From the NCBI GenBank assembly GCA_963920705.1, contig OY987228.1, forward strand, positions 1,795,613-1,859,612: a stretch of 64,000 bases of DNA, given 5' to 3'. Origin of the DNA: Odiellus spinosus. Lineage: Eukaryota > Arthropoda > Arachnida > Opiliones > Phalangiidae. Under the pieces are notes generated by a model. The model was not told where the DNA came from and searched no databases. It saw only the letters and a program-made list of their open reading frames with translations. Both the position numbers and the translations under genes were made by a program. Shown in pieces: positions 10,763 through 57,297 of this stretch (its first letter is position 1; the number at the start of each line of letters is the position of its first letter).

Positions 10763-11046
10763 AATCGTGTAGCTACAAAACAGCCGACGGTAAAAGCGTC
10801 ACGAAAATGAAAGGCATTTCCCTAAATCGAAAAAATGAAGAAATCATCAATTTTGATTCGATAAAAGCGGCCTTGGACAAACCAGAAACCACGTACTCGG
10901 TGGAGGTCCCCTTTAACGTGGTGCGCAACAAGAGTCAGGCGAAGCTTTTTCTGGGTAATTTAAAGAAGACTTTTGGTGTCACCTTTAATAAAAGAATTAT
11001 CAAAGATGATTACTCGACAGTGCCCTTTGGATATTCGAACGAATAA
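10763..11046 (+). pseudogene. PolB C-terminal fragment, left half
   Basis: The last 94 or so codons of the polymerase at 14382-18203 are repeated here in inverted orientation, ending in the same VPFGYSNE. The fragment begins inside the gene, directly after the arm sequence, at a CCCA shared by both parents (10759-10762). It has no start and no catalytic motif. Confidence 0.92.
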
Positions 11047-11047
11047 G

Positions 11048-11434
11048 ATGTATCGTGAAAGTAAAAGATTGGAGACCTTTAACAATATCAATTAGTTGAC
11101 GGCCTCGAAACATTTGCCACGTCACTCGTATCTAGCTACGGAACTAGCTGAAGCGGGTTTTTTCTACTTGAACGAAGGCTGTTAGACTAGATGTTTCTGT
11201 TGTCACAATGAATTTGACTGGAGCGAAAGCAGTAGCGATGAATATCCACTGAGCGTACATCAAAGAGAAGCCCCGTTTTGCGCCTTTTTACTCGATCAGG
11301 ATAAAACTAATTTGAAAGCGTACGAAGAAGCCCATCAAGAAAAATTGGCCAAGGAAGCTGTGGAAAAACTGACCATTTTGATGAAAAACAAACATATATT
11401 GAGGTTTGTGGAAGCATTACGCGAGGTGGTATTA
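11048..11434 (+). pseudogene. BIR protein pseudogene, left half
   Basis: This is the inverted copy of the gene at 13994-14380. A Trp codon has become TAG near 11093, a Lys codon has become TAG near 11183, and the normal TGA end has become TTA near 11431. The broken copy keeps the spacing to its neighbours. It is a decayed duplicate rather than a separate gene. Confidence 0.88.
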
Positions 11435-11435
11435 G

Positions 11436-11630
11436 ATGGATTTGGAAAAGAGTATAAAAAAGGTGACATTTGACGAGATAACGGTTATTTGGTATATCCC
11501 TGTCGAGGATCGGATCAATTGGAATTTTGTCAATCATTTCCGTTTTAAAAAGAGAATTAAAGATTTTGAGCTTAAATTTCAAAAATGTCGTGTCGAATCA
11601 AATTTCAAACCCCAATGCAGCTGTTGGTGA
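11436..11630 (+). CDS. PP1-docking (PPP1R15/GADD34-like) small protein, left copy
   Basis: This 64-residue frame is almost identical to the right-half copy at 13798-13992, including KKVTF at residues 8-12 and the EDR...W...RF..RI stretch at residues 24-41. It is open, ending in a slightly different last residue, but the flanking BIR and ATPase copies are broken, so expression is doubtful. See the right-half entry for the functional reasoning. Confidence 0.55.
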   Translation: MDLEKSIKKVTFDEITVIWYIPVEDRINWNFVNHFRFKKRIKDFELKFQKCRVESNFKPQCSCW

Positions 11631-12237: not shown

Positions 12238-13221
12238 ATAAACTTGTTTCTTCAATAAAAGTGTTATTACGGATCTTGACTTTAAAAGAACATGTTGAGA
12301 AAACGTACCTCAAGACGTTTGCGGAGCAGGCGAAAACCAATATCATTACTGAAAAAAGTTTTATTACGGAACGCTCGGAGGGCTTTACGGACCCAAACCA
12401 GATTTACCAGACAACGGCATCCCCTGAAGAAACACTTGCCTTTCTTACGGAGGTTGGTCAACGTTAGTCAAAAAGGAGGTGGAAAACTAGAGCAGTTTTT
12501 GAAAAGAGCCAAGGCCCCTCAAATTAAATCAATCAACAAAACGTTTTTTAACTTGTTACGCGGTAACATTGAGATACCTGAGGAAGCCCGGTTGTACCTA
12601 AAACAGCACCGAGGTCTTGTCCGTCAATTAGGCAGTAAACGGGGGACCACCCAAACGAATCGGAAATTGTATATAAATCAAGCTGGAGGTATGTTGCCCG
12701 GTTTAATCGGTGCTCTGGTACCGACCCTGATTTCAACAATTTCTTCTCTGGTACGATGAAGCGAATGGTTTTGTTACCAGAAACGGCTCTTTCCTCGGAA
12801 GCGTATAAAGAAGCCTCAGCTCTTGATCGTGAAATAAAGAGGATTTTGAAAATGAACATGTCACCCGAAAACAAACTTCGACACTATTTGACGACACTAC
12901 AACAATTTTTGACCATGAAAAGTTTAATAGAACCTCCCTCCGTCAACGTGCAGAACTTTCCAGCCAGTCTGACGGCACCAATATCAACACCAGCGCCACC
13001 ATTGACCGGACCGACGCAAATTACACCTACACCGAGCTGGTTTCCGAGTTTTACAACTTCTCCCGCCTTAGCGTTGTCGTCAACTGGTACGTCTACACCG
13101 CTCGCTTCTATATCACGGACTCCTACCCCTCCACCTCAGATATCAGCCGGAGCATCAAGCAGTCAGACCCAGCGTTTGTCACAAGCGATATCGAATCTGT
13201 TGACTTCGCAAGCGGCGTCCT
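12206..13221. other. Unique loop of the giant palindrome
   Basis: This 1016-bp segment is the only part of the core that is not duplicated. On its left the sequence reads ccctcacgaag then ggtaat; on its right the inverted copy reads ccctcacgaag then aggacg (minus strand). An inverted duplication with a short unique spacer is the signature of foldback priming or template switching. Confidence 0.85.
12292..12759 (+). CDS. pX-like basic and hydrophobic virion protein
   Basis: A 155-residue frame with an Arg/Lys-rich N-terminus (residues 1-60), a middle helix-like part (LLRGNIEIPEEARLYLKQH) and a C-terminal Gly/hydrophobic segment ending in GALVPTLISTISSLV. The same layout is seen at 56959-57297, where GNVSL...QKGGFLP and a hydrophobic tail match. 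Maverick and adintovirus genomes encode such proteins, compared by some with adenovirus pX core protein; a DNA-binding, capsid-membrane role is inferred. It lies in the single-copy loop of the palindrome and overlaps the next gene by ATGA. Confidence 0.7.
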   Translation: MLRKRTSRRLRSRRKPISLLKKVLLRNARRALRTQTRFTRQRHPLKKHLPFLRRLVNVSQKGGGKLEQFLKRAKAPQIKSINKTFFNLLRGNIEIPEEARLYLKQHRGLVRQLGSKRGTTQTNRKLYINQAGGMLPGLIGALVPTLISTISSLVR

Positions 13222-13229
13222 CTTCGTGA
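12756..13229 (+). CDS. Conserved Maverick ORF, Pro/Ser/Thr-rich, truncated at the junction
   Basis: The ATG overlaps the previous stop as ATGA. The N-terminus (KRMVLLPETAL, then EIKRILKMNMSPENKLRHYL) is equivalent to the N-terminus of the ORF at 57300-57917 (KKMLLISEETF ... IKDILDD). From about residue 65 the protein becomes rich in Pro, Thr and Ser. The last codons and the TGA at 13227-13229 lie across the palindrome junction (13222), so the natural C-terminus is missing. Function unknown; a late or structural role is inferred from gene order. Confidence 0.6.
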   Translation: MKRMVLLPETALSSEAYKEASALDREIKRILKMNMSPENKLRHYLTTLQQFLTMKSLIEPPSVNVQNFPASLTAPISTPAPPLTGPTQITPTPSWFPSFTTSPALALSSTGTSTPLASISRTPTPPPQISAGASSSQTQRLSQAISNLLTSQAASSS

Positions 13230-13843
13230 GGGAATAGGTTACTTCTTAAACGTAACTCGTCAGGCATATTTTGTTTTAAATCTATACATAAGTAAGAAAA
13301 TGGATTAGCAGCCGTCACTAGATGAAAAGCTTTGGCCACGAGATTTTTGTTATGGGGAAATATTTGTCTACTCAAGTAGTTTATTTGACTTCCATCACGA
13401 GGATTTTTGAAACATATGATATAAGAGGAATTAAGGCTAATTGTTCGGCTTTCTTTTCCTTGTCCAAATAGATTTTGAGTTAACAAAGCCACTGACACAT
13501 TTTTATGGTGCGAGGAAACACAATAGATATTAGCAATGTGCGCTTTATTATAGCAGGTAAAGGCCAAGTCATCAATAATTAAAAAATTATGCAAATTTTC
13601 ATCCCAAAAATTGGGATCTTCTGGGGGCAATCCCTCAATAAACTCTAAATTTTTTATTTCTTTCTGCATGTCTTTAAATTTTGGTTGGTAATCTTTATAA
13701 CAGTACACGATCCTATTGGGTGGTGGTTCAATTAAAGTCTCGGCGTTTTTTAAAAGGTTAAATATCCAGGTGGTTTTACCACACATGGTTGGACCACTCA
13801 ACAACAGCTGCATTGGGGTTTGAAATTTGATTCGACACGACAT
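13230..13843 (-). CDS. FtsK/HerA-type genome-packaging ATPase, C-terminus cut
   Basis: The start MSCRIKFQTPMQ is followed by Walker A (GPTMCGKT, residues 17-24) and Walker B (LIIDDLAF, about residues 86-93), with SSHHKNVSVALLTQNLF after it, the layout of the A32-like ATPases that pump DNA into Maverick and adintovirus capsids. It is homologous to the ATPase at 55881-56516. After LFPHE the frame runs into inverted loop DNA and continues to 13163 with unrelated residues, so about 10 native C-terminal residues are replaced. The ATG overlaps the end of the upstream PP1-docking ORF by 46 nt. Confidence 0.85.
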
Positions 13844-13992
13844 TTTTGAAATTTAAGCTCAAAATCTTTAATTCTCTTTTTAAAACGGAAATGATTGACA
13901 AAATTCCAATTGATCCGATCCTCGACAGGGATATACCAAATAACCGTTATCTCGTCAAATGTCACCTTTTTTATACTCTTTTCCAAATCCAT
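13798..13992 (-). CDS. PP1-docking protein, PPP1R15/GADD34-like
   Basis: A 64-residue protein with K-K-V-T-F at residues 8-12, which fits the RVxF docking motif for protein phosphatase 1, followed by an EDR-x2-W-x6-RF-x2-RI arrangement (residues 24-41). That order and spacing is the core of the PPP1R15 (GADD34/CReP) family, which brings PP1 to phosphorylated eIF2-alpha and so reverses translational shut-off; several animal DNA viruses carry such a core. Its ATG lies one base after the BIR stop (TGA G ATG). The match is by eye over a short region, so the role is a strong hypothesis rather than fact. Confidence 0.65.
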   Translation of the reverse strand: MDLEKSIKKVTFDEITVIWYIPVEDRINWNFVNHFRFKKRIKDFELKFQKCRVESNFKPQCSCC

Positions 13993-13993
13993 C

Positions 13994-14380
13994 TCATACC
14001 ACCTCGCGTAATGCTTCCACAAACCTCAAAATATGTTTGTTTTTCATCAAAATGGTCAGTTTTTCCACAGCTTCCTTGGCCAATTTTTCTTGATGGGCTT
14101 CTTCGTACGCTTTCAAATTAGTTTTATCCTGATCGAGTAAAAAGGCGCAAAACGGGGCTTCTCTTTGATGTACGCTCAGTGGATATTCATCGCTACTGCT
14201 TTCGCTCCAGTCAAATTCATTGTGACAACAGAAACATCTAGTCTTACAGCCTTCGTTCAAGTAGAAAAAACCCGCTTCAGCTAGTTCCGTAGCTAGATAC
14301 GAGTGACGTGGCAAATGTTTCGAGGCCGTCAACCAATTGATATTGTTAAAGGTCTCCAATCTTTTACTTTCACGATACAT
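13994..14380 (-). CDS. BIR-domain (IAP-like) protein
   Basis: A 128-residue protein with one BIR domain at about residues 8-82: R-L-x-TF near the start, LAEAGFFYL, then the zinc ligands C49, C52, H71 and C78. BIR proteins bind caspases or their regulators and in insect viruses block apoptosis. No RING domain follows; the C-terminal 45 residues are charged and helical. The ATG lies one base after the polymerase stop (TAA G ATG), so I chose it over the in-frame upstream start at 14455, which lies inside the polymerase gene. An anti-apoptotic role is inferred; isolated BIRs can have other functions. Confidence 0.85.
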   Translation of the reverse strand: MYRESKRLETFNNINWLTASKHLPRHSYLATELAEAGFFYLNEGCKTRCFCCHNEFDWSESSSDEYPLSVHQREAPFCAFLLDQDKTNLKAYEEAHQEKLAKEAVEKLTILMKNKHILRFVEALREVV

Positions 14381-14381
14381 C

Positions 14382-17300
14382 TTATTCGTTCGAATATCCA
14401 AAGGGCACTGTCGAGTAATCATCTTTGATAATTCTTTTATTAAAGGTGACACCAAAAGTCTTCTTTAAATTACCCAGAAAAAGCTTCGCCTGACTCTTGT
14501 TACGCACCACGTTAAAGGGGACCTCCACCGAGTACGTGGTTTCTGGTTTGTCCAAGGCCGCTTTTATCGAATCAAAATTGATGATTTCTTCATTTTTTCG
14601 ATTTAGGGAAATGCCTTTCATTTTCGTGACGCTTTTACCGTCGGCTGTTTTGTAGCTACACGATTTGGGTCCTGAACTAACAAATTCAGTGATATAAGTA
14701 CCCGGAACTTCATCGGTCCAGTCTCCCATAAACTGACCGATGGGTGGAAAATTTGTTTCGTCATTGTTCTTTCGGACAAAAAAAACCGAGTCAGTGTCAT
14801 AATATAAAATCCTGGTCCCCAACTGTTGCAAAGTTTGAAACAAGACAATGCGACCATAGGAGCTAACGAAGCAACCAACCACAGGCGAACCTTTGTAGTA
14901 CGTCGGACAAAAATCTTTCTTGAACTTGTAAGACAACATACAAACTTCGTCATTGAAAGGTCGCATATCGGTCAGTTCGATAGTCGGGTCTGTGACAATG
15001 GATATGTAGGCTTCGTAGGTTTTGACAAAGACCGTCTTGGGCTTGTCGTGGGACATGCAGTGACGTCCCCAATTGCAGTTGAGCGCTAGCTTGGCAAGAG
15101 TTCTGAGAGGGGTGTTGCACGTCACATACTCAGCTTTAATATCAGTCTCTTCCCTCTCCTTGATCGCCTTCAAATATTCCGATTTTTCGGCTTCCGTTTT
15201 CACTTCTCTCGGCCATCCCGAATTTTGAATTTTCAGCTTCAAAAAGGTATTGATGTACCCTCCAAAGAAACCTGGATCCTCCCCTTTAACGTAGCGGTAT
15301 CTTTCAGCGTAGTGATGAACTTCGAAAATTTCCATTATGACGTATCCAAATTCCACGGCATTGTATATTTCAACACTCGTCCAGCAGCCGTCGAAAGCCC
15401 TTGTGGGTGCAAGACTCAAGATCGTTTTCCACGCATGTCTTACATAAGGCAAAGAAAAGTTTACACCTTGTTCGAAAAGGTAAGGCTGGTATATATGCGT
15501 TTTTGGTGCCAAAATCTTGCAAGACATTAATCCAAAATAAAAATTTGTTTCGTAATTAAAAATTTTTTTAATTACTTCCGGGTGTAACTTTGGATAGTCA
15601 CGGTACTTACAGACAAAGGGGTAAAGACTCATTATATCGTAGAATAAGATCTTCTCATCCGGTTGAGCCTTTCGATACAAAACGAGACCTTCTGTCCGAC
15701 CGCCGTTTAAAGCGGATTTCGGACCAATTGGTTCGCGAAAAGATAAAGATTTGCAGAATGTTTTTAACTCATGGTTAGTCTTCAACATTTCTTCCCATTC
15801 GCAGCTCCAGATTCGGACGTATTCGGCATTGGGGGCGTCGGTTTTGATGGCGTCATCCCGATCTAAAGTTCTTTCGTACAGGTTTTTGAAAGAATCTTGT
15901 AACAAAGGATTCCACTGGCTACCCTTTGTATGAAGCGAGCATCCGTGAAAAAAGTCCCCGTCGTATTGAAAAATGATTTCTGGATTAGCGCAATATCCAT
16001 CAACCGGAAAACGACCAATTTTCTTTTCACCTCCCAACGATAGGGTGGTTTGTATATCGATGTTACGTTTCTCCGCTTCCCAAGCCAACCACTTTAATGC
16101 GGCTTGACTTTGATTGATATTGTTTCCATATCTGTTTGCCGGAACAACGCCTAAACTAAATTCTTCCAGGTACTTGTGCAGAAATATGTTAGTACAAGCC
16201 CCGGCAATGGTCAAAGCATTCATGTTCATAACGTCGTAAGCGGTTTCTTGCTGGAATAATCTTCGAAAGGTATCCATTCCTTTTTGTAACACATTGACAT
16301 CCATGATTGTGTAATACTCCAATTCTTCGCGTAAATTATAGACTGGTTGCTTTTTCTTCTCTTCGTACCACTGGCTAAACTCGGCGTAATCTTTTTCTTT
16401 CATGTATTCAGGTTGAAAATAGTCTTTGCTAGGGAGAGGCCCGACGTAATCTAACGTGTCTTCAGTATGAAAAGTATAGGGGAAAAATTCTTTTTTGCTT
16501 TCCCCCAATGAAAACGTGGCGGGAAACGATCTTAAAGGTTGAGCCACAAAATTAAAGGAATCCAAGAATTTCATTTTTTGTTGGTTCAGAAAGATGGCCA
16601 GCAGCTTGCTACCTTTAAAGACAACATCAGGGGTAATGGACATTTTTAATAAGGCGTTTAAAATGAAGAAACTATCAAAGCCCATAAAATTGTAAGCGAT
16701 TAATGTTAGGTTTTCAAAGACTGGAACCGTTTTCTTCATACGTTTCGTGGCGTGTTGAATATAGGTATCTTTCGTTTGGAAGAGGTACGCCATAAACTGG
16801 TCAATGCAGTCAAACCCTCGAAATATACTGTAGGTGTATTCTCCGTCTTCTTCATTTTCCATGGCGCTAACCAACAGAACTGGGACATGTTCGTTATTTT
16901 TGGTCACAGTCTCAGTGTCAAAATAACAATAACGTCTCTTTTCGTACTTGGTATCCAAAGGCATGACGTAACAACGGTTTTTTTCGTGTTTTCTCCGACA
17001 ATTTTTACAGGGTCTCGAACATTCGTGATTGTCTTTCAATTCTAATCCGCATTTTACGCAGCGTTTAAAATTTTTACACGTGCCGTTAGCTAAATGTAAA
17101 TTGAAGCAATCTGGACCTCTAAAGTAACGCCCACAGTCGCGACATCTCTGTAACGGAATGTTAATTTCCTCGTGAAAAACGTTTAACATACGACATCTAC
17201 TACAATTCACACGCGTCTCGCAATCGTGTTCTTTAATTTGACTATTTCGAGTAAAAATCTTTAAACATTTTGAACAATAGGACTGGCCACCCTTCAAACA

Positions 17301-18203
17301 ATGATAATCCTTTAATATATGCACGTGATCGTTCAAAATAACCATAAAAATTTGTTTTTCACGCCAGGGACCGCGAAAATAAAATTCATTAATATTTTCT
17401 AATCGAATAATGATAATTTGGTAGTCGACCAGAAATTGTTGGAATTTTTCGATACTTTTCAAGTTAACGGCCCCTGGTTCGATTTTGGCATTATGGTATA
17501 AGAGTAGAGCTTCTTGTTTCTGTACATCCTTCGTACTGTCTCGCATTTCTTTATAAAAATATGTCTGCTCTTTGTTCAGTTTGAAGGCTTTGTTCTTTCT
17601 TTTCTCGACCCGGAGATCGGCTAAAAAGATGCCAATAGCCAAAGCTCGGCCGAAACATAAATGATCATCATTTTCCAGATAAATGTAATTGGGATTGATT
17701 TTAATAAACGTGTCAAAAGGGACAATATTTCGACGATTCAAACCTTTTTGGAGACCGCCAACTGGGACGTCACATTGTAATTGAACCACGTCAAAAGTTA
17801 GTGAACTCTCAAGATGAAAATTTTGGTTCGATTGCGCTACTTGACTAATAGCTCGAATAACTCTCTCGGCTGTTAGGTCATTTATGTTCATAAAGGCCAG
17901 GTTAATCGGGCTATCCAATTCATCCGAGCGAATACAGAAGCGTACTCGATTGTACCCTTGGTAGTCCCGTAACAATTCGTACAGTAAAGAGTTTATAATA
18001 CTGACAAAAGTTTCGTGAATTTCAGTCAGTTTAATTTGATCCAAATTTTTGAAGCGCACTTTACCTTCTACCTGCTGACATTTGTATTTCCGCGAGTGTT
18101 TAGCTAGAATTTTATCAATAGAATAAAATTGTTTTGGGTTACTTTTTAAACTTAAATCTAATGGCTGTTCATCCTGATCGCTGTCCGATTCTTGGCTACT
18201 CAT
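14382..18203 (-). CDS. polB: Family B DNA polymerase, Maverick/adintovirus type
   Basis: A complete 1273-residue protein. In order: an N-terminal region with NDDHLCFGRAL near residue 185; a cysteine/histidine-rich zone at about 300-400 (CSKC, CRDC, CVKC, CKNC); 3'-5' exonuclease motifs YFDTET (about 426), YNFMGFDSFF (about 504) and YTIMDVNVL (about 633); an endonuclease-like VDGYC...DGDFFHGC block (about 740); and polymerase motifs A (DIMSLYP, about 856), B (KLALNCNWG, about 1042) and C (YDTDS, about 1136). This is the replicative enzyme of large self-synthesising transposons and related viruses, usually protein-primed. No break is visible. It starts the chain polB-BIR-PP1 docking-ATPase. Confidence 0.95.
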   Translation of the reverse strand: MSSQESDSDQDEQPLDLSLKSNPKQFYSIDKILAKHSRKYKCQQVEGKVRFKNLDQIKLTEIHETFVSIINSLLYELLRDYQGYNRVRFCIRSDELDSPINLAFMNINDLTAERVIRAISQVAQSNQNFHLESSLTFDVVQLQCDVPVGGLQKGLNRRNIVPFDTFIKINPNYIYLENDDHLCFGRALAIGIFLADLRVEKRKNKAFKLNKEQTYFYKEMRDSTKDVQKQEALLLYHNAKIEPGAVNLKSIEKFQQFLVDYQIIIIRLENINEFYFRGPWREKQIFMVILNDHVHILKDYHCLKGGQSYCSKCLKIFTRNSQIKEHDCETRVNCSRCRMLNVFHEEINIPLQRCRDCGRYFRGPDCFNLHLANGTCKNFKRCVKCGLELKDNHECSRPCKNCRRKHEKNRCYVMPLDTKYEKRRYCYFDTETVTKNNEHVPVLLVSAMENEEDGEYTYSIFRGFDCIDQFMAYLFQTKDTYIQHATKRMKKTVPVFENLTLIAYNFMGFDSFFILNALLKMSITPDVVFKGSKLLAIFLNQQKMKFLDSFNFVAQPLRSFPATFSLGESKKEFFPYTFHTEDTLDYVGPLPSKDYFQPEYMKEKDYAEFSQWYEEKKKQPVYNLREELEYYTIMDVNVLQKGMDTFRRLFQQETAYDVMNMNALTIAGACTNIFLHKYLEEFSLGVVPANRYGNNINQSQAALKWLAWEAEKRNIDIQTTLSLGGEKKIGRFPVDGYCANPEIIFQYDGDFFHGCSLHTKGSQWNPLLQDSFKNLYERTLDRDDAIKTDAPNAEYVRIWSCEWEEMLKTNHELKTFCKSLSFREPIGPKSALNGGRTEGLVLYRKAQPDEKILFYDIMSLYPFVCKYRDYPKLHPEVIKKIFNYETNFYFGLMSCKILAPKTHIYQPYLFEQGVNFSLPYVRHAWKTILSLAPTRAFDGCWTSVEIYNAVEFGYVIMEIFEVHHYAERYRYVKGEDPGFFGGYINTFLKLKIQNSGWPREVKTEAEKSEYLKAIKEREETDIKAEYVTCNTPLRTLAKLALNCNWGRHCMSHDKPKTVFVKTYEAYISIVTDPTIELTDMRPFNDEVCMLSYKFKKDFCPTYYKGSPVVGCFVSSYGRIVLFQTLQQLGTRILYYDTDSVFFVRKNNDETNFPPIGQFMGDWTDEVPGTYITEFVSSGPKSCSYKTADGKSVTKMKGISLNRKNEEIINFDSIKAALDKPETTYSVEVPFNVVRNKSQAKLFLGNLKKTFGVTFNKRIIKDDYSTVPFGYSNE

Positions 18204-18440: not shown

Positions 18441-18878
18441 TTACTTTTTGACCCTTTTGTTCGCTGGACTGATTTGCTTATTCGGATTTTGCCTCATATC
18501 TTTAGCAATTTGGGTGACAATAGAGTTTACCAGTTTACACTCCTTGCTGTTCTCTTGGGCAAAGAAACGTAGTCTTCGACCATCCGCCATCCAAATTTCA
18601 TTGGCTGGTAAATTCTTAATCTTGTTGTACTCGTAAATTTGTATATCAATGTAGTAATCTCCGACTTGAGCTGGTAAACTTATAGAGTAAGAAGCCGAGT
18701 CTTCTTTCACGTCGTATTTTGGAACTAAGCCACCTTGATTTTGAATAGTACTTCCTTCTTTAACTGTATTAATATGCGATATTAATTCATCTTTCCAATC
18801 CAAATTATCTGAGAGATCAGGTAAAGAATCAAAGAAGTCGGTTACCTTGCGTTTATTCGATGATGAATTAGCAGCCAT
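18441..18878 (-). CDS. Small nuclear-type protein next to polymerase
   Basis: A 145-residue frame starting MAANSSSNKRKV and ending ISPANKRVKK, with basic clusters at both ends that resemble nuclear localisation signals. The middle has an acidic DSLPDLSDNLDWKDEL stretch and a beta-rich IDIQIYEYNKIKNLP part. No family is recognised. A TATA box (18964-18970 on -) lies about 90 bases upstream and the gene is divergent from the spliced gene at 19407. Position before polB suggests an early gene, perhaps a replication accessory or DNA-binding protein. It has no copy in the left half, because it lies in the deleted part. Confidence 0.7.
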   Translation of the reverse strand: MAANSSSNKRKVTDFFDSLPDLSDNLDWKDELISHINTVKEGSTIQNQGGLVPKYDVKEDSASYSISLPAQVGDYYIDIQIYEYNKIKNLPANEIWMADGRRLRFFAQENSKECKLVNSIVTQIAKDMRQNPNKQISPANKRVKK

Positions 18879-34777: not shown

Positions 34778-36409
34778 ATATCAAAAATGTCTTTGCGAAC
34801 AAAGACCCAGAAGGACATGTTATGGCCTTGAATGTCTGAAGTGACAGATATTATATCAAAAATGTCTTTGCGAACAAAGACCCAGAAGGACATGTTATGG
34901 CCTTGAATGTCTGAAGTGACAGATATTTAATTTTCTTTTAAAACATTAAATTTAAATACAATTAAATTTTCTTTTAAAACATGAAATTTAAATACAATTA
35001 GATTTTCTTTTAAAACGAAATTTAAATATAATCACAATCTGGCACGATTTAGAGTTTCAAATTTCAATACAACTGATTTTATTCACTCGGAAATATTTAA
35101 GAAAAACATAACAGACGATTTTCTCCCATTGACGCTTAACATTAAATTTCGCTTAATTATTTTTCAGGGAAAACGTGTATTGAACTGTTATTTTTCAGTA
35201 TAACGCGAGTCCACTTTTTGTTTTCTTAATTTAACCCGAATTTCCACGACTCGCAATTGAACGGATCGTTAGAAATACTCGCCGGTTTATTAGAATGGGT
35301 ATATGATAAAGGGAAATGTGTTTTTGAAAGCCCGTTTAAAGTCACCTTCTTTTCTAACTTAGCAGACGACGCAAACCATAACAATTTGTACTTTCAAAGC
35401 TATTTTGCGCGCGCGAGGGAAGAGAATTTCAAAGCGACGAATTTTAGAGCGGATAAGGTTTTTAAAAAAATTATAATACTTTAATTTTTATTTTCATTAA
35501 AACCGTACAATTTAAATGATGATTTCCATAAGGGACCACTAATTAGTTATTAGGAGTTATAAAAAAAACATTATCCATGGATTAGGTTTGTTCGTTTGCA
35601 ACCCAAATTAAAAATTAAAATATGGGGAATTTTTATTCCCTTTAAATTCCTTGTATAAGCATCCGTAAGCTAACATGAACGAATTGCCTCGACTAAAGTC
35701 GAGGAGTTGTAATAAAACATTATCCATGGATTAGGTTTGTTCGTTTGCAACCTAGATTAAAAATTAAAATATGGGGAATTTTTTTCCCTTTAAATTCCTT
35801 GATAAGCATTCATAAGCTAACATGAACGAATTGCCTCGACTAAAGTCGAAGAGTTATAATAAAGCATTATCCATAGAAAACATTATACAATTAAGGTATG
35901 AGATCAGATCATAGAACTTTGAGTCTATGCCTAAAGCCAAAGCTAAATTAAGTATATTTTTCTATCGAACGAAAAGTTTCGTTTTGTTTGACACGTAATC
36001 CCTGAAAAATAATCAAGCGAAATTTAATGTTAAGCGTCAATGGGAGAAAATCGTCTGTTATGTTTTTCTTAAATATTTCCGAGTGAATAAAATCAGTTGT
36101 ATTGAAATTTGAAACTCTAAATCGTGCCAGATTGTGATTATATTTAAATTTCGTTTTAAAAGAAAATCTAATTGTATTTAAATTTCATGTTTTAAAAGAA
36201 AATTTAATTGTATTTAAATTTAATGTTTTAAAAGAAAATTAAATATCTGTCACTTCAGACATTCAAGGCCATAACATGTCCTTCTGGGTCTTTGTTCGCA
36301 AAGACATTTTTGATATAATATCTGTCACTTCAGACATTCAAGGCCATAACATGTCCTTCTGGGTCTTTGTTCGCAAAGACATTTTTGATATAATATCTGT
36401 CACTTCAGT
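34778..36409. mobile_element. Foldback transposon with 0.4-kb inverted repeats
   Basis: Inverted repeats at 34778-35170 and about 35999-36409 are nearly perfect. Each is built from tandem units: two 75-bp units (atatcaaaaatgtctttgcg...) at the outside and three 36-bp AT-rich units (aaatttaaatacaattaaat) inside. The 0.83-kb centre has two 150-bp direct repeats with the dyad cctcgactaaagtcgagg. No transposase is encoded, so it is non-autonomous. Tandem-repeat-built inverted termini are typical of foldback (FB/Galileo-like) elements. Confidence 0.8.
35257..35484 (+). other. Short open frame inside the foldback element
   Basis: A 75-codon open frame between the inverted repeats (GSLEILAGLLEWVYDKGKC). 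There is no promoter, second copy or recognised family to support it. It could be a relic of a captured exon. I list it because it is the only frame of any length inside the element. Confidence 0.15.
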
Positions 36410-36462
36410 CTAACACGAAAGTGTTAACTTCTATATTAAAAGACTAGCCCTTTAAAAAGTGA

Positions 36463-39400
36463 TTCAGTCAAATCTCACCATTGCCCTTTAAACCCAATTA
36501 AAATTAATTTTTTCATAATTTTAAATGTTAATAGCTGCGGCAGCCGCACTTGATTCAGTCAAATCTCTACATTTTTACCATTGCCCTTTAATCCCAATTA
36601 AAATTAATTTTTTCATTATTTTTGATGTTAATAGCTGCGGCAGCCGCACTTGATTCAGTCAAATCTTTACATTTTTACCATTGCCCTTTAATCCCAATTA
36701 AAATTAATTTTTACATTATTTTTGAAGATAATAGCTGGGGCAACCGAACTTGATTCAGTCAAATCTCTACATTTTTACCATTGCCCTTTAATTCCAATTA
36801 AAAAAAATTTTTACATTATTTTTGATGTTAATAGCTGGGGGAGCCGCACTTGATTCAGTCAAATCTCTACATTTTAACATTGCCCTTTAATCCCAATTAA
36901 AATTAATTTTTACATTATTTTTGATGTTAATAGCTGGGGCAGCCGCACTTGATTCAGTCAAATCTCTACATTTTTACTAGTGCCCTTCAATCCCAATTAA
37001 AATTAATTTTTTCATAATTTTTGATGTTAATAGCTGGGGCAGCCGCACTTGATTCAGTCAAATCTCTACATTTTTACCAGTGCCTCTTAATCCCAATTAA
37101 AATTAATTTTTACATTATTTTTGATGTTAATAGCTGGGGCAGCCGCACTTGATTCAGTCAAATCTCTACATTTTTACCAGTGCCCTTTAATCCCAATTAA
37201 AATTAATTTTTTCATAATTTTTGATGTTAATAGCTGCGGCAGCCGCACTTGATTCAGTCAAATCTCTACATTTTTACCAGTGCCCTTTAAACCCAATTAA
37301 GATTAATTTTTTCATAATTTTTGATGGTAATACCTCCGGCAGCCGCACTTGATTCAGTCAAACCTCTACATTTTTACCAGTGCCCTTTAATCCCAATTAA
37401 AATTAATTTTTACATTATTTTTGATGTTAATAGCTGGGGGAGCCGCACTTGATTCAGTCAAATCTCTACATTTTAACATTGCCCTTTAATCCCAATTAAA
37501 ATTAATTTTTACATTATTTTTGATGTTAATAGCTGGGGCAGCCGCACTTGATTCAGTCAAACCTCTACATTTTTACCAGTGCCCTTTAATCCCAATTAAA
37601 ATTAATTTTTACATTATTTTTGATGTTAATAGCTGGGGGAGCCGCACTTGATTCAGTCAAATCTCTACATTTTAACATTGCCCTTTAATCCCAATTAAAA
37701 TTAATTTTTACATTATTTTTGATGTTAATAGCTGGGGCAGCCGCACTTGATTCAGTCAAATCTCTACATTTTTACTAGTGCCCTTCAATCCCAATTAAAA
37801 TTAATTTTTTCATAATTTTTGATGTTAATAGCTGGGGCAGCCGCACTTGATTCAGTCAAATCTCTACATTTTTACCAGTGCCTCTTAATCCCAATTAAAA
37901 TTAATTTTTACATTATTTTTGATGTTAATAGCTGGGGCAGCCGCACTTGATTCAGTCAAATCTCTACATTTTTACCAGTGCCCTTTAATCCCAATTAAAA
38001 TTAATTTTTTCATAATTTTTTATGTTAATAGCTGGGGCAGCCGCATTTGATTCCAGTCAAATCTCTACATTTTTACCAGTGCCCTTTAAACCCAATTAAG
38101 ATTAATTTTTTCATAATTTTTGATGGTAATACCTCCGGCAGCCGCACTTGATTCAGTCAAACCTCTACATTTTTACCAGTGCCCTTTAATCCCAATTAAA
38201 ATTAATTTTTACATTATTTTTGATGATAATAGCTGGGGCAGCCGCACTTGATTCAGTCAAATCTCTACATTTTTACCAGTGCCCTTTAATCCCAATTAAA
38301 ATAAATTTTTACATTATTTTTGATGTTAATAGCTGCGGCAGCCGCACTTGATTCCAGTCAAATCTCTACATTTTACCAAGTTGCCCTTTAATCCCAATTA
38401 AAATTAATTTTTTCATTATTTTTGATGTTCCAGCCGCACTTGATTCAGTCAATTTTCTACATTTTTACCAGTGCCCTTTAATCCCAATTAAAATTTATTT
38501 TTTCATTATTTTTGATGTTAATAGCTGGGGCAGCCTCACTTGATTCAGTCAAACCTCTACATTTTTACCAGTGCCCTTTAATCCCAATTAAAATTAATTT
38601 TTACATTATTTTTGATGTTAATAGCTGGGGCAGCCGCACTTGATTCAGTCAGATCTCTACATTTGTACCATTGCCCTTTAAACCCAATTAAAATTAATTT
38701 TTTCATAATTTTTGATGTTAATAGCTGGGGCAGCCGCACTTGATTCAGTCAAATCTCTACATTTTTACCATTGCCCTTTAATCCCAATTAAAATTAATTT
38801 TTACATTTTTTTGATGTTAATAGCTGGGGCAGCCGCACTTGATTCAGTCAAATCTCTACATTTTTACTAGTGCCCTTCAATCCCAATTAAAATTAATTTT
38901 TTCATAATTTTTGATGTTAATAGCTGCGGCAGCCGCACTTGATTCCAGTCAAATCTCTACATTTTTACCAGTGCCCTTTAATCCCAATTAAAATTAATTT
39001 TTTCATAATTTTTTATGTTAATAGCTGCGGCAGCCGCATTTGATTCCAGTCAAATCTCTACATTTTTACCAGTGCCCTTTAAACCCAATTAAGATTAATT
39101 TTTTCATAATTTTTGATGGTAATACCTCCGGCAGCCGCACTTGATTCAGTCAAATCTCTACATTTTTACCATTGCCCTTTAATCCCAATTAAAATTAATT
39201 TTTACATTATTTTTGATGTTAATAGCTGGGGCAGCCGCACTTGATTCAGTCAAATCTCTACATTTTTACCAGTGCCTCTTAATCCCAATTAAAATTAATT
39301 TTTACATTATTTTTGATGTTAATAGCTGGGGCAGCCGCACTTGATTCAGTCAAATCTCTACATTTTTACCAGTGCCCTTTAATCCCAATTAAAATTAATT

Positions 39401-42400
39401 TTTTCATAATTTTTGATGTTAATAGCTGCGGCAGCCGCACTTGATTCAGTCAAATCTCTACATTTTTACCAGTGCTCTTTAATCCCAATTAAAATTAATT
39501 TTTTCATAATTTTTTATGTTAATAGCTGCGGCAGCCGCATTTGATTCCAGTTAAATCTCTACATTTTTAACAGTGCCCTTTAAACCCAATTAAGATTAAT
39601 TTTTTCATAATTTTTGATGGTAATACATCCGGCAGCCGCACTTGATTCAGTCAAACCTCTACATTTTTACCAGTGCCCTTTAATCCCAATTAAAATTAAT
39701 TTTTACATTATTTTTGATGATAATAGCTGGGGCAGCCGCACTTGATTCAGACAAATCTCTACATTTTTACCATTGCCCTTTAATTCCAATTAAAATAAAT
39801 TTTTACATTATTTTTGATGTTAATAGCTGCGGCAGCCGCACTTGATTCCAGTCAAATCTCTACATTTTACCATTGCCCTTTAATCCCAATTAAAATTAAT
39901 TTTTTCATTATTTTTGATGTTAATAGCTGGGGCAGCCGCACTTGATTCAGTCAATTTTCTACATTTTTACCAGTGCCCTTTAATCCCAATTAAAATTTAT
40001 TTTTTCATTATTTTTGATGTTAATAGCTGGGGCAGCCTCACTTGATTCAGTCAAACCTCTATATTTTTACCAGTGCCCTTTAATCCCAATTAAAATTAAT
40101 TTTTACATTATTTTTGATGTTAATAGCTGGGGCAGCCGCACTTGATTCAGTCAGATCTCTACATTTGTACCATTGCCCTTTAAACCCAATTAAAATTAAT
40201 TTTTTCATAATTTTTGATGTTAATAGCTGGGGCAGCCGCACTTGATTCAGTCAAATCTCTACATTTTTACCATTGCCCTTTAATCCCAATTAAAATTAAT
40301 TTTTACATTTTTTTGATGTTAATAGCTGGGGCAGCCGCACTTGATTCAGTCAAATCTCTACATTTTTACTAGTGCCCTTCAATCCCAATTAAAATTAATT
40401 TTTTCATAATTTTTGATGTTCATAGCTGCGGCAGCCGCACTTGATTCCAGTCAAATCTCTACATTTTTACCAGTGCCCTTTAATCCCAATTAAAATTATT
40501 TTTTTCATAATTTTTTATGTTAATAGCTGCGGCAGCCGCATTTGATTCCAGTCAAATCTCTACATTTTTACCAGTGCCCTTTAAACCCAATTAAGATTAA
40601 TTTTTTCATAATTTTTGATGGTAATACCTCCGGCAGCCGCACTTGATTCAGTCAAATCTCTACATTTTTACCATTGCCCTTTAATCCCAATTAAAATTAA
40701 TTTTTACATTATTTTTGATGTTAATAGCTGGGGCAGCCGCACTTGATTCAGTCAAATCTCTACATTTTTACCAGTGCCTCTTAATCCCAATTAAAATTAA
40801 TTTTTACATTATTTTTGATGTTAATAGCTGGGGCAGCCGCACTTGATTCAGTCAAATCTCTACATTTTTACCAGTGCCCTTTAATCCCAATTAAAATTAA
40901 TTTTTTCATAATTTTTGATGTTAATAGCTGCGGCAGCCGCACTTGATTCAGTCAAATCTCTACATTTTTACCAGTGCCCTTTAATCCCAATTAAAATTAA
41001 TTTTTTCATAATTTTTTATGTTAATAGCTGCGGCAGCCGCTTTGATTCCAGTCAAATCTCTACATTTTTACCAGTGCCCTTTAAACCCAATTAAGATTAA
41101 TTTTTTCATAATTTTTGATGGTAATACCTCCGGCAGCCGCACTTGATTCAGTCAAACCTCTACATTTTTACCAGTGCCCTTTAATCCCAATTAAAATTAA
41201 TTTTTACATTATTTTTGATGATAATAGCTTTGGCAGCCGCACTTGATTCAGTCAAATCTCTACATTTTTACCATTGCCCTTTAATTCCAATTAAAGTAAA
41301 TTTTTACATTATTTTTGATGTTAATAGCTGCGGCAGCCGCACTTGATTCCAGTCAAATCTCTACATTTTACCATTGCCCTTTAATCCCAATTAAAATTAA
41401 TTTTTTCATTAATTTTGATGTTAATAGCTGGGGCAGCCGCACTTGATTCAGTCAATTTTCTACATTTTTACCAGTGCCCTTTAATCCCAATTAAAATTTA
41501 TTTTTTCATTATTTTTGATGTTAATAGCTGGGGCAGCCTCACTTGATTCAGTCAAACCTCTACATTTTTACCAGTGCCCTTTAATCCCAATTAAAATTAA
41601 TTTTTACATTATTTTTGATGTTAATAGCTGGGGCAGCCGCACTTGATTCAGTCAGATCTCTACATTTGTACCATTGCCCTTTAAACCCAATTAAAATTAA
41701 TTTTTTCATAATTTTTGATGTTAATAGCTGGGGCAGCCGCACTTGATTCAGTCAAATCTCTACATTTTTACCATTGCCCTTTAATCCCAATTAAGATTAA
41801 TTTTTACATTTTTTTCATGTTAATAGCTGGGGCAGCCGCACTTGATTCAGTCAAATCTCTACATTTTTACCATTGCCCTTTAATCCCAATTAAAATTAAT
41901 TTTTACATTTTTTTGATGTTAATAGCTGGGGCAGCCGCACTTGATTTAGTCAAATTTCTACATTTTTACTATTGCCCTTTAAACCTAATTAAACTAAATT
42001 TTTTCATAATTTTTGATGTTAATAGCTGCGGCAGCCGCACTTGATTTAGTCAAATTTCTACATTTTTACCATTGCCCTTTAAACCCAATTAAAATAAATT
42101 TTTTAATAATTTTTGATGTTAATAGCTGGGGCAGCCTCACTTGATTCAGTCAGATCTCTACATTTTCCCCATTGCCCTTTAAACCCAATTAAAATTAATT
42201 TTTTCATCAATTTTGATGTTAATACCTCCGACAGCCGCAGCGAAATCATTATATTTTCCCCATTGCCCTTTAAACCAAATTTAAATTAAATTTTTCATCA
42301 ATTTTGATGTTAATACCTCCGACAGCCGCAGTGAAATCTTTATATTTTCCCCATTGCCCTTTAAACCAAATTTAAATAAATTTTTTCATCAATTTTGATG

Positions 42401-42590
42401 TTAATACCTCCGACAGCCGCAATGAAATCTTTATATTTTCCCCATTGCCCTTTAAACCAAATTTAAATTAATTATTTCAGCAATTTTGATGTTAATACCT
42501 CCGACAGCCGCAGCGAAATCTTTATATTTTCCCCATTGCCCTTTAAACCAAATTCCAATTAATTTTTTCATTATTTTTGATGTTAATACC
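36463..42590. repeat. 100-bp satellite array with 1.5-kb higher-order period
   Basis: About 61 head-to-tail monomers of about 100 bp, each with cttgattcagtcaaatctct, a tgccctttaatcccaatt block and a GC dyad (tgcggcagccgca or tggggcagccgca). Marker variants recur at fixed distance: atttgattccagt near 38045, 39538 and 41040, and cagtcaattttctac near 38446, 39949 and 41449, giving a higher-order unit of about 15 monomers. At the right edge (42220-42590) monomers shrink to about 91 bp and diverge, as expected at an array border. Open frames in it are periodic artefacts. Confidence 0.95.
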
Positions 42591-42669
42591 TTCCTTATTG
42601 CCGTTCGGAATGGCAAGTCGTTCGGAATTTCACTCATTTTTAAAAAGGAGAGTACTTTTAAGGCGGAGA

Positions 42670-43190: not shown

Positions 43191-43513
43191 GGCCATGCGC
43201 GAAACCAGCAAAGTACCAAAAAAAGGGTCAACTTCAGAATTAATTTTAAAATACTTAGACTTAATATTTTTAAATGAAACTTGAAAAGTTCAACATTCGA
43301 ACCTTGCTCTACCATTTAAAAGTGATTATAACTGTAACAAATAATTCCTCTTTTAGTTCTGTCAATCACTGGACTTGTCCTCGAAAGAGTCGATTTTAAT
43401 GTTATTCTATGGGAGAATGGAGCGTTTTGATTGGCTAGAGACTGAATTTTTTAGGAAATCAAAATAGCATTACAAATGATGATCAGCCCAATACATAGAA
43501 CCCTACCGGGTTC
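43191..43513. other. Right end of the 8.7-kb insertion
   Basis: No gene. The stretch ends in a short dyad, agaaccc-tacc-gggttct (about 43497-43514), just before C3orf38 sequence resumes. That hairpin may be part of the insertion's terminus. Confidence 0.5.
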
Positions 43514-44273
43514 TAAGAATTTCTGTGATCGGTACAGGGGCCCCTTGATGTTGTCGATTAAAAATTGGGACCTGATTATGTAGTTCAGTATTTGGCATTT
43601 GTACTATTTGTTGTACAAAAGGAGGTGGAAGAGATTTTCGGTTTGGATAGGTAATGATGGGATTTAAAAAGTTCATTTCGTAACTCGGCTGACATTCTTG
43701 AGGAACTGGATTGCGATTAGCTTGTATATTGTAAGCTTGAACTTGAAATTGGGCTACATTTTCTCGCAATTGTCCCCGCATCGCGTCCTTGAAAGATTAA
43801 TTTCATTAATTATTTTAAAAGAAACTTAGGCCATGAGAAACTTACAGCATTTCCCCAAAACCTAAGGCAGGCATCAATGAAGTCTGTTTTAGTACCATTC
43901 ACCGAAACCTGTGCTCCAGAATCCAGAAGATATTGAAAGAGCAGCTCCCTTTTGATTTTCCTGCTTCTTAAAAGAATTGAAGGATCCTCGGAAAACATAA
44001 CTATGGCTTGTATGGCATCTGTATAAGAATCCCTCAATGATTTGGCATTGTCAATACTGGTGAACGTAACAAAACGTAATGGAATTCCGTGATTGTGATT
44101 TAATTTTCTCATTGTCGAAAATTATTAATTAAATTAATTAAAGTAGTAAACTAGTAATAGTAATGTACCTTCTTTGTTCCGTGGTATGACCAATCCCTTG
44201 GTAGTTGTAAAGGTGAGTGAGTTTAAATCCTCAAAAAAAGTTTACGTAAAAGCGTTATAATTTCAGCATCCAT
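43514..44273 (-). pseudogene. C3orf38: C3orf38-like copy 5, 5' half
   Basis: Exon 1, exon 2 and the 5' part of exon 3 are present from the ATG at 44273 to the insertion at 43514. Exon 1 has lost one base in a T run (aaactttttttgagg, near 44240), so the copy was or became non-functional independently of the insertion. It continues at 34777-34413. Confidence 0.88.
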
Positions 44274-44770
44274 CGTCACACTCAAAAATTTGTTAATGTT
44301 TAAACGATTGTGGTTTTCAAAATAATTAGGCTAAACTCAATATTCAAAAACGTTTTTACAAATTATGGGAAATCACGTGATGTGAACCCCCGTCGAGAAA
44401 TGAAATTGTCGAGGTTTCGCGCGCTTTATGTCAAGGCCATAGCCTCCTCGATCACGCGCTTCGGCTGTGCTCGCACTATAGACTATAGAAGCCCCGGTTT
44501 GAGAGAATAAATGGGAAATTGAAACTCCCAAAAAAAAAGCTAAAAAGCACTAAAATGTAGGGGAGAAAAGTCGTGGCGAGATACAAATTCTTGTCTAAAG
44601 TTTTAAATTTACGCTCCAGCTTCCTGATTTTTTAACCACATCTAAGTATGTACGGATAATTTACAAATTAATACCGAGCCTTTGAGAATTACAAATTTTC
44701 TGTCAATAATTGTTGAAACTAGCGAACCTATCATTTTTCTCTCCGGGCGGATTTTTTTGCGGTTTTCACG

Positions 44771-52740: not shown

Positions 52741-52774
52741 AGTAGTTTATTCCTGTACAACAAAAAGGGGGAAA

Positions 52775-53070: not shown

Positions 53071-53296
53071 CGAAAAACCCATTTTCAAGGAGGACTGACA
53101 CAAATTTTAATTTTTCCGTCCCTGCTCCTTTATTTTTCCAAAAATGACAAAAGTTTTAACACTATATCGGTAGAATTCTAGGCTCATATCAACGTCATTC
53201 CGACGTCATTTTTAATACATCACGTGACTTTAAAGATATCAAACAAAAAACCCTTCAGTTAAACGTCATTTAAACTCGGAAATCCAAACTTTGAAG

Positions 53297-53662: not shown

Positions 53663-53689
53663 ATTGTTTTGTTTAACATATTTGTATTT

Positions 53690-55412: not shown

Positions 55413-55880
55413 TATCAACTTTTAAACTATTTTCCATCCTTATCTATATTCTCGGTTCTTATCTCTATGTTCAGATATCACGTGATTGAAAGTTTAAATT
55501 TTAAGGCGCGAAGATATGGGAAAATCAGTTAGCTTTGGTATCTCTACCATTTACAAAATACCATATGAAGATAGGGTTAACCACGAATTTCGTCAATTAT
55601 GTATGTTTAGAATGCGTATTAAATGCGTGTACGAACCAATATTAAAACCAATACTGCAACTGAAACAAATGAAATATGAGTGATATGGGAAAACCCAACA
55701 CGTCATTATATCAAAGGTCGCGTATTTTCATGGTAAAACATCTAGCTCCATCGTATAGATAAAGTCATTTTACGAAACTCCTGATACTCATCTAGACCTG
55801 CACTCTTCTGGTAAGTATTTTTTTAAGATCTTAAAGTCATATATATTCGATGATACTCCAATATTCTCTCATTTATCGAT
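55413..55880. other. Left flank of the second virus-like element
   Basis: No ORF is supported. It contains tcacgtgatt near 55488 and several short AT-rich stretches. It probably holds the terminus and promoter of the second element, but no terminal inverted repeat can be confirmed because the other end is outside the window. Confidence 0.4.
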
Positions 55881-56516
55881 TTGGATTTAAGTCTGCAACA
55901 CCCTTTTAACGGACTGGTGGCTGGAGTAGCAGGATGTGGAAAAAGCGTCTTTGTTGCGAAATTAATTGAACACAAGGAAATTAGAATTTCGCCCCCACCC
56001 GAACGGATAATATGGTGTTATACTGAATACCAAGACAAACTATTTAATTCCATATCGAGCCATACCCCAAGCGTGGAATTTCACGAAGGTCTATTGGATG
56101 TAGGCACTTTAAACGCCAACGTTAGAAACTTTGTTATATTAGACGACCTTTTATGCGAAATCGCTAATAACAAGGAAGTTACCAACTTATTTATTCGAGG
56201 ATCCCATCATCGGAATACCTCAGTATTAATTTTAATGCAAAACCTCTACTACCCAGGAAAGGAAATTCGAACATTGAATCTCAACGCTCATTATCTGATA
56301 ATCTTTAAAACACCGAGAGACCAATCTGCGATCCTACATTTGGCGAAACAGATATCTCCAGTCAACAGTAAATACGTTGTGGACGCGTTTAGACAAGCCA
56401 CAGCTATCAGTTACGGATATCTATTCGTAGACCTCAAAGCTACGACCCCGGAAGATAGAAGACTAAAGACCGGGATTTTACCAGGAGAACAAGCCGCCAT
56501 TTTTCTACCAAAATGA
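55881..56516 (+). CDS. Packaging ATPase of the second element
   Basis: A 211-residue ATPase with Walker A GVAGCGKS (residues 15-22) and Walker B VILDDLL (residues 85-91), then SHHRNTSVLILMQNLYYPGKE as in the first element's ATPase. The role is DNA packaging into the virion. The first codon of the conserved frame is TTG (ttggatttaag), with no upstream in-frame ATG close by; either the start codon has mutated or a short 5' exon exists, as in genes of the first element. The stop overlaps the next ATG (ATGA at 56513). Confidence 0.85.
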   Translation: MDLSLQHPFNGLVAGVAGCGKSVFVAKLIEHKEIRISPPPERIIWCYTEYQDKLFNSISSHTPSVEFHEGLLDVGTLNANVRNFVILDDLLCEIANNKEVTNLFIRGSHHRNTSVLILMQNLYYPGKEIRTLNLNAHYLIIFKTPRDQSAILHLAKQISPVNSKYVVDAFRQATAISYGYLFVDLKATTPEDRRLKTGILPGEQAAIFLPK

Positions 56517-56992
56517 CCGGAATAATCGAAGCAAACTTCTTCAGAGTTCAAGACCAATGGATCGTGAAAGAAATATCACTATTCGTGAAGGAGACGGGCG
56601 AACACGAGGTATGGATCTTTAAAGCGCCATTCCCATTCACGGACTTATCGTCTAAGGATAAAAGGCAATGTCAATGGCTGACGAGGAACAGTTGCGACTT
56701 ACGCTGGGACGAAGGAGATCATCCATTCGAAGCTCAGGCTGAAATTGCCAAAATCATACGAGAGAAAGCCATTACTTTTATAACCAAAGGCTTAGAAAAA
56801 TCTATCGTGTTATCAAGGTTTTTGAAGACTGAAGTCGCTAACGCCGAAGATTTGGGCTGCCCAAGACTAGTAACTATAATTTGTGGAACGCCCAGAAGTT
56901 GTACGTTTCACCGAGACGAAAACAATTGTACGCTCGTGAAAGCTGCCCGATTAGCTACATGGCTCCGCCGAAGAGAGTACACGAGCACTTAG
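56513..56992 (+). CDS. C/H/C-motif protein of the second element
   Basis: A 159-residue single-exon protein related to the spliced genes at 8567-10358 and 19407-21173: QWIVKEISLF, FKAPFPFTDLSSKDKR, FITKGLEKS, LGCPRL, then CTFHRDENNC near the C-terminus. The conserved C-x2-H...C end suggests a metal site. I believe such ORFs are common near Maverick genes, and the pattern hints at an RNase H-like fold, but the function is not established. It overlaps the ATPase stop and the next gene's start. Confidence 0.7.
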   Translation: MTGIIEANFFRVQDQWIVKEISLFVKETGEHEVWIFKAPFPFTDLSSKDKRQCQWLTRNSCDLRWDEGDHPFEAQAEIAKIIREKAITFITKGLEKSIVLSRFLKTEVANAEDLGCPRLVTIICGTPRSCTFHRDENNCTLVKAARLATWLRRREYTST

Positions 56993-57297
56993 ACTTTCTA
57001 AAATATCTGAGTTCGTGTAACGCGTGTCAACGAAACGCAGCCATTAAATACGCGAGTAAAGAAGAATTAAAAACCATCGCCGAATGTTGTATAAATATAC
57101 TGCAGGGTAACGTTTCTCTCACAGATGACGAGAAGAAACGACTGAAGAAGCATTGCAATTCCATACGTCGCGTGGCCAAGAAAAATACTCCTGCTAAACG
57201 AAGACAAATTTTAATTCAAAAAGGTGGATTTCTCCCAATATTACTTCCGATAATCAGTTCCATAGCAGGAGCTATCCTATCTAAAGTTATCAATTAA
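56959..57297 (+). CDS. pX-like basic and hydrophobic protein, second element
   Basis: I take the ATG at 56959 (MAPPKRVHEH), which gives 112 residues and overlaps the previous gene by 34 nt. A Cys-x2-Cys (SCNACQ), a helix with GNVSLTDDEKKRLKKH, a basic stretch and a C-terminal hydrophobic tail (ILLPIISSIAGAILSKV) follow. It corresponds to 12292-12759. A core or membrane-active virion role is inferred from comparison with adenovirus pX. Confidence 0.7.
   Translation: MAPPKRVHEHLDFLKYLSSCNACQRNAAIKYASKEELKTIAECCINILQGNVSLTDDEKKRLKKHCNSIRRVAKKNTPAKRRQILIQKGGFLPILLPIISSIAGAILSKVIN

Follow-up and report, generated by a model that had tools for sequence, protein, structure and literature searches.

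A BIR protein and a probable PPP1R15-like protein between the polB and ATPase genes of a Maverick: a candidate host-response cassette

Mavericks (Polintons) are often treated as transposons, and the virus-like behaviour of the animal elements is debated. A gene that counters the shut-off of translation would be of use chiefly to an element that encounters this defence inside living cells. The 64,000 nt of Odiellus spinosus DNA analysed here (termed the window) raise this issue in a specific form: why should a Maverick carry, between its polB gene and its packaging ATPase gene, a protein with one BIR domain and a 64-amino-acid protein (termed p64) with the motifs of PPP1R15/GADD34? An earlier note on this DNA read the pair as a host-response cassette. 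We consider it fairly likely that this reading is correct, with p64 recruiting PP1 to reverse eIF2-alpha phosphorylation and the BIR protein blunting cell death. We infer PP1 binding, the choice of substrate, the control of apoptosis and the joint action of the two genes from sequence.

Gene order in the first element

Open reading frames called across the window place polB, the one-BIR protein, p64 and a packaging-type ATPase in this order on the minus strand. The polB gene (14382..18203, minus strand) encodes a 1273-amino-acid polymerase of the Maverick/Polinton type that matches Pfam DNA_pol_B_2 with an E value of 1.3e-37. It has 38 relatives at E<=1e-10, with identities of 24-34%, and three of these carry the animal names Anomaloglossus, Frankliniella and Neocloeon, which we take to be a frog, a thrips and a mayfly respectively. 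The BIR protein (13994..14422, minus strand) is 142 amino acids long from its first ATG, and p64 occupies 13798..13992 on the minus strand. The ATPase (13163..13843, minus strand; 226 amino acids) has weak matches to Pfam AAA_14, Pox_A32 and Adeno_IVa2, all below cut-off. A gene for a pX-like basic protein (12292..12759, plus strand) adjoins the ATPase copies of this first element. Within the 64-kb window, no single element was seen to hold the full set of polB, ATPase, protease, capsid and integrase genes.

The junctions between these genes are tight. One base separates polB from the BIR gene (TAA-G-ATG) and the BIR gene from p64 (TGA-G-ATG), and the 3′ part of p64 shares 46 nt with the start of the ATPase gene at 13843. 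Given the polB junction, the BIR protein probably starts at the ATG at 14380, which yields 128 amino acids. All four genes, including the 1273 codons of polB, are uninterrupted in what is the right-hand copy of a duplicated region, and their packing is virus-like. The description on which the earlier note was built is therefore present in the sequence: a one-BIR protein with four zinc ligands lies directly downstream of polB, and the 64-amino-acid protein reads KKVTF ... YIP followed by EDR-x2-W-x6-RF-x2-RI. Separately, a 145-amino-acid open reading frame upstream of polB (18441-18878), which matches no family above cut-off or at a convincing E value, is possibly another accessory gene.

The identity of the BIR domain is secure. 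The profile search that the earlier note proposed for this protein returned Pfam BIR (PF00653) at an E value of 1.4e-11 and 45.2 bits against a cut-off of 22.9, and this is the sole family above its cut-off; no RING domain is among the Pfam matches. The zinc ligands, numbered from the first ATG, are of the Cys3His type (C63-x2-C66...H85-x6-C92). The closest solved chains, among the best 60 of 72 distinct PDB sequences at E<=0.01, are those of NAIP and then XIAP. In BIR3 of XIAP, a Trp three residues past the zinc His holds peptide ligands; at the matching position of the window's protein stands Glu, which makes canonical peptide binding doubtful. A structure prediction run without an alignment did not fold the domain (pLDDT 44). 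Overall, we lean slightly towards a protein that blocks cell death.

The PPP1R15-like residues of p64 and its homologue p55

Functional sites in the cellular proteins provide a guide for reading p64. For PPP1R15B, the accessible text of one study names the RVxF motif, I652, R658, W662, F672 and I676 (PMC4394352). For PPP1R15A, that of another describes Arg591, Arg594, Arg587 and Asp588 as facing eIF2-alpha, and Phe592, Arg595 and Arg612 as facing actin; the strongest loss on the actin side comes with Phe592 together with Arg595, Arg612 is less important, and changes to Trp582 or Arg591 impair substrate binding (PMC8500838). Trp582 of PPP1R15A corresponds to W662 of PPP1R15B, and we therefore shifted numbers by 80 between the two schemes.

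When p64 is aligned to this core, V10 and F12 fall on the RVxF motif, I21 on I652 (the phi-phi site) and R26 on R658 (the Arg site), which together are the PP1-docking positions. W29 corresponds to W662/W582 and R36 to the substrate-facing Arg591, whereas the actin-facing counterparts are F37 (Phe592/F672) and R40 (Arg595). K39 stands at the Arg594 position and I41 at I676. Relative to PPP1R15B, p64 is missing one residue before EDR, as is the Shearwaterpox virus protein SWPV1-205, and three more around the Trp, one ahead of it and two behind. The two-residue gap falls in the segment to which R587 and D588 of PPP1R15A belong. There is no alignable C-terminal part of p64 and no counterpart of R612. 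A structure model places a helix from residue 23 to 54 at low confidence (pLDDT 52).

These correspondences suggest how the proposed cassette might work. Having entered a Maverick/Polinton between its polB and packaging ATPase genes, it would supply p64 as a cut-down PPP1R15 core. On PP1, the RVxF site would be filled by KKVTF, the phi-phi site by the I of IP and the Arg site by the Arg of EDR. The remainder of p64, which begins at the Trp and includes RF..RI, would bind G-actin and the lobe of eIF2-alpha. PP1 would then strip the phosphate from eIF2-alpha, allowing protein synthesis to continue while the element replicates, and the single-BIR protein encoded next to p64 would hold off or prevent cell death. 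Docking to PP1 is likely and is the best supported of these steps. Action of p64 on eIF2-alpha is plausible, and on the present alignments we regard it as reasonably probable.

The window contains another, diverged Maverick that bears on this proposal. Its ATPase gene (55887..56516, plus strand, with a start codon of our choosing) encodes a protein 40-41% identical to the ATPase of the first element (tblastn E value of 7e-51 at 40% identity), and is followed by a 159-amino-acid protein related to the 193-amino-acid open reading frames in the duplicated arms of the window (E 6e-8). Further along lies a pX-like basic protein gene (56959..57297, plus strand; BLASTP E value of 2e-12 to 12292-12756). 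The element also has a Peptidase_C5 match just under cut-off (7e-4), a weak DJR-like match (0.12) and an integrase-like open reading frame that ends in a chromodomain (2.8e-6). We had compared 12756-13226 with 57300-57914 as possible homologues, and this pairing was unsupported (E 5.6).

Upstream of the second ATPase gene is p55 (55516..55683, plus strand), a diverged 55-amino-acid homologue of p64 with 46% identity over 35 amino acids (E 2e-7 as a single comparison). When p64 is used as a query against all 614 stop-to-stop frames of at least 40 amino acids in the window, p55 ranks third with an E value of 1.1e-4 and the next frame follows at 0.33. The p64-p55 score was reached by none of 20,000 shuffles. 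The survey of the same position in related elements that the earlier note had suggested thus leads to p55. Because this homologue exists, we rejected the idea that p64 is noise of the duplicated region. No BIR gene lies beside p55: none was seen between 55269 and p55, and the DNA up to 55269 is duplicated flank.

The two small proteins share KxVxF, IP, EDR and FxxRI. At the level of individual residues, p55 keeps those predicted to contact PP1 (V5/F7 of KxVxF, I15 and R20) and those predicted to face actin (F31 for Phe592 and R34 for Arg595), plus the I676 counterpart. In the 34 codons aligned between p64 and p55, 23 of 34 third positions differ compared with 27 of 68 first and second positions (Fisher p 0.011). 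This excess, drawn from a small sample, is as expected for a protein kept by selection.

What p55 has not kept gives weight to a different reading, in which p64 and p55 dock PP1 but direct it to another substrate, either in host signalling or among the element's own proteins. In the comparison with p64 alone, p55 has H23 at the place of the Trp and M30 at that of Arg591, and in the family alignment there is a gap at the Trp. The parts retained in both proteins are the PP1 part (KxVxF, IP and EDR) and F..RI, not the Trp or the substrate-facing Arg, and the stretch after the Trp is shorter than that of PPP1R15 in p64 and p55 alike. An RVxF motif, moreover, is described in the accessible text as common to many PP1 binders (PMC4394352). 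However, p64 itself retains counterparts of the Trp and of Arg591, the match extends beyond the PP1 part through RF..RI, and the best PDB match of a profile of p64 and p55 is PPP1R15B and no other PP1 binder. We judge this different reading unlikely and retain eIF2-alpha as the candidate target of p64. For p55, eIF2-alpha is a doubtful substrate, and the loss of Trp and Arg591 may show a docking part that has been aimed at a new one.

Sources of the match to PPP1R15

To what extent is p64 recognisable as a PPP1R15 relative without reading motifs by eye? The curated Pfam family PF10488 gives no match up to an E value of 10 with p64, a longer p64 frame or p55. As a control, the same Pfam library finds the 49-amino-acid human PPP1R15B core at 1e-33, and hence the miss reflects a real difference rather than a blind spot for short proteins. 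Other single-sequence approaches gave similar outcomes. A word-based search of 5.8 billion proteins returned no candidate homologue of p64, a single-sequence search of viral_contigs found no p64 locus, and p64 as a single PDB query retrieved only unrelated chains, with no PPP1R15 chain up to an E value of 10. Pfam and PADLOC assign no family to p64, and NCBIfam gives one match far below cut-off.

Profiles were more informative. A search with p64 aligned to the PPP1R15B core returned 11 proteins, all with PF10488. By eye, nine of these look like exon pieces of vertebrate PPP1R15B; another is SWPV1-205, and the eleventh, a PDB piece of PPP1R15B, was left out. A profile built from the PPP1R15B core and the remaining ten, with p64 excluded, ranks the two copies of p64 present in the window first and second among the 614 frames (E 9.9e-6 and 1.4e-5), and the third frame follows at 0.57. 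The score of p64 is 20.3 bits, whereas 20,000 shuffles of p64 reach no more than 11.8 bits and 19,034 decoy frames, made by shuffling or reversal, no more than 11.4 bits. Alone against this profile, p55 reaches only an E value of 1.3.

Most of the p64 signal in this profile stems from one avian poxvirus protein, SWPV1-205, which entered it through a search that also used the words of p64. As the only query profile, SWPV1-205 gives p64 an E value of 2.8e-6 (better copy, 614 frames) and p55 an E value of 0.038 at rank 3. A vertebrate-only profile gives 0.0047 and the PPP1R15B core alone 0.037 for the better p64 copy; the two copies lead the 614 frames in both cases, and across copies the vertebrate sequences alone are a weak guide (E 0.005 to 0.07). 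BLASTP as a single comparison places p64 at 1e-7 from SWPV1-205 and at 2e-4 from the PPP1R15B core.

The reverse comparison used a profile of p64 and p55 with no PPP1R15 row. Against 177,635 distinct PDB sequences, PPP1R15B chains are the top two matches (E 0.03 and 0.038; the next is 0.68). An E value of 0.03 is modest, and the profile recovers two of the eight PPP1R15-family sequences known in PDB; chains of PPP1R15A and of African swine fever virus (ASFV) DP71L, whose solved structure is 9nb9, are absent up to an E value of 10. In a local test, all 11 PPP1R15 rows outscore all 6,380 decoys (the weakest has 10.7 bits, compared with 9.7 bits), although every row except SWPV1-205, 10 of the 11, is a near-alike vertebrate sequence. 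Aligned profile to profile with hhalign, p64 plus p55 and PPP1R15 give a probability of 91%.

Could a short basic protein have come to look like PPP1R15 by accident or by convergence, its reading frame being real and serving another use? The lack of a Pfam match, the unrelated chains returned by PDB for p64 alone and the weak vertebrate-only signal are in keeping with this, as is the direct test in which 4 of 20,000 p64 shuffles reach the observed score against the PPP1R15B core. The profile tests in both directions, with their shuffles and decoys, speak against it, as does the retention of the same row of motifs in the diverged p55, and we consider coincidence improbable. Our preferred reading is that p64 is very probably a PPP1R15-like PP1-docking protein. 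The earlier note had tied its PPP1R15/GADD34 assignment to a profile match and to conservation of KKVTF. Profiles in both directions and a KxVxF-bearing homologue at the same place uphold that assignment in part, and the outcome that the note named as refuting it did not occur, whereas the silence of PF10488, the weakness of the vertebrate-only signal and the missing Trp and substrate-facing Arg of p55 count against its stronger form. The finding is nevertheless better supported than at first reading, because p55 occupies the same place in a second element.

Origin and setting of the gene pair

The first element lies within a large imperfect inverted duplication, in which 6309-10762 matches 23439-19004 at 98.0%. 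Closer to the gene pair, 10759-12205 matches 14669-13222 in inverted orientation at 99.2%, and the left side is without the polB body. This left side carries a second, open copy of p64 (11436..11630, plus strand), in which only the last codon, and with it the last residue, differs from the right-hand copy. It also carries a second copy of the BIR gene (11006..11434, plus strand) broken by two nonsense changes and with a changed stop codon. The divergence between left and right copies is too small to speak for selection. A BIR gene adjoining p64 is accordingly seen in one element only, in two copies made by local duplication. We think it quite improbable that this stretch is DNA in decay, or DNA of the host, that no longer has a function: a setting of duplications that are mostly 98-99% identical, and a broken left BIR gene, would suit that explanation, but polB, BIR, p64 and ATPase are open with tight junctions in the right-hand copy, and third positions differ in excess between p64 and p55.

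Genes related to polB also occur in seven contigs (L003-L009) that are filed under bacterial bins and, judging by gene content, are probably eukaryotic Maverick (or viral) DNA contaminating those bins. In two of them, L003 and L008, the order of polB, ATPase and pX-like gene (recognised by eye) is the same as in the first element, and the ATPases are 33-34% identical to that of the first element. The L003 pX lookalike has a weak Adeno_PX match below cut-off. Unlike the first element, which has the BIR gene and p64 at this point, both have the stop codon of polB and the start codon of the ATPase gene one base apart (TAA-A-ATG). This gap of one base makes the BIR gene and p64 look like an insertion at a single junction relative to L003 and L008; the two genes may instead have been lost from those contigs. 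L003 and L008 come from one bin and thus represent one sample rather than independent ones, and their ATPases are 55% identical, which marks them as different elements. Among the frames listed, the other five polB contigs show different gene orders or break off at polB or shortly past it. Two further contigs, L001 and L002, have open reading frames that are phage-like by eye and were not used for gene order.

No relatives of the gene pair were found among 769 frames of at least 35 amino acids from L001-L009, where the best E values were 0.088 for BIR, 0.11 for p64, 0.042 for p55 and 0.18 for the PPP1R15 profile. The p55 match, in L005, is one that we take to be due to chance: it covers 20 residues without EDR and runs antisense within the polB stretch. 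Scans of viral_contigs were made with polB, a PPP1R15 piece, the ATPases and p64 plus p55; one of them returned the loci L001 and L002, and the others gave no relative.

Both kinds of protein, and their combination in one virus, are already known. PPP1R15 copies in herpes simplex virus and in an insect virus are described in the accessible text as conserved only in the core (PMC4394352). ASFV encodes the IAP-like A224L plus a GADD34-like protein, although the accessible text does not state that the two genes are neighbours (PMC5618007). As described there, A224L resembles the BIR protein of the window in having one BIR and no canonical RING and in sharing a genome with a GADD34-like protein, and differs in being longer (224 amino acids) and in having a C-terminal zinc finger (PMC5618007). 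The literature searched, with the adintovirus paper outside its coverage, yielded no report of a BIR or PPP1R15-like protein in a Maverick, nor a paper treating both PPP1R15 and Polinton. The earlier note's suggestion that the pair is new to Mavericks is in agreement with this, and its novelty is narrowed by the presence of both protein types in ASFV, so far as the source describes it (PMC5618007). What is new here is the p55 homologue upstream of the ATPase gene in a second, diverged Maverick.

Like the viral mimics ASFV DP71L, HSV ICP34.5, the insect granulovirus protein coGV-gp036 and SWPV1-205, p64 has RVxF, an EDR/Trp region and RF..RI. Of these, SWPV1-205 alone was compared directly with p64, the others by description, and in it the F of RVxF and EDR are as far apart as in p64. 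In contrast to the mimics, p64 is shorter by one residue ahead of the Trp and by two behind it, lacks a PF10488 match and is encoded by a Maverick, whereas they belong to large DNA viruses. With cellular PPP1R15A/GADD34 and PPP1R15B/CReP it shares counterparts of the PP1-docking residues, the Trp, Arg591, Phe592 and Arg595, but it is without their long N-terminal region, the R587/D588 stretch and the actin contact R612.

We propose, tentatively, that an animal Maverick lineage gained a minimal eIF2-alpha phosphatase adaptor at the polB-ATPase junction, with at least one branch adding an anti-death BIR protein. If this is true, Mavericks would meet both eIF2-alpha kinase shut-off and cell death while replicating, and hence would infect as viruses do; the gene pair suggests that such elements fight host defences in a virus-like way. 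In addition, p64 and p55 would form a small natural series (64 and 55 amino acids) for finding the smallest part of PPP1R15 that can still redirect PP1, and the polB-ATPase junction would provide a precise insertion site at which to seek further accessory genes.

Several other features of the window were observed. Positions 1-29693 and 43511-55269 consist of long duplications in both inverted and direct orientation; most of them are 98-99% identical, and the resulting patchwork may be either a real palindrome or an effect of assembly. By eye, the patchwork includes open reading frames like those of copia-type retrotransposons, and it holds several copies of a protein of which the one copy tested matches DUF4518 (PF15008, 1e-15). 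In the second Maverick, the ATPase frame has no ATG between the last upstream stop and the Walker A region (55850-55900), so the gene may contain an intron or use an unusual start. The protease and capsid-like genes of that element lie between two inverted copies (783 nt, 99%) of a segment that resembles an integrase, at 58410-59192 and 63218-64000. Finally, 36348-42601 is a satellite-like array with a period of approximately 100 nt, or 91 nt at the array end.
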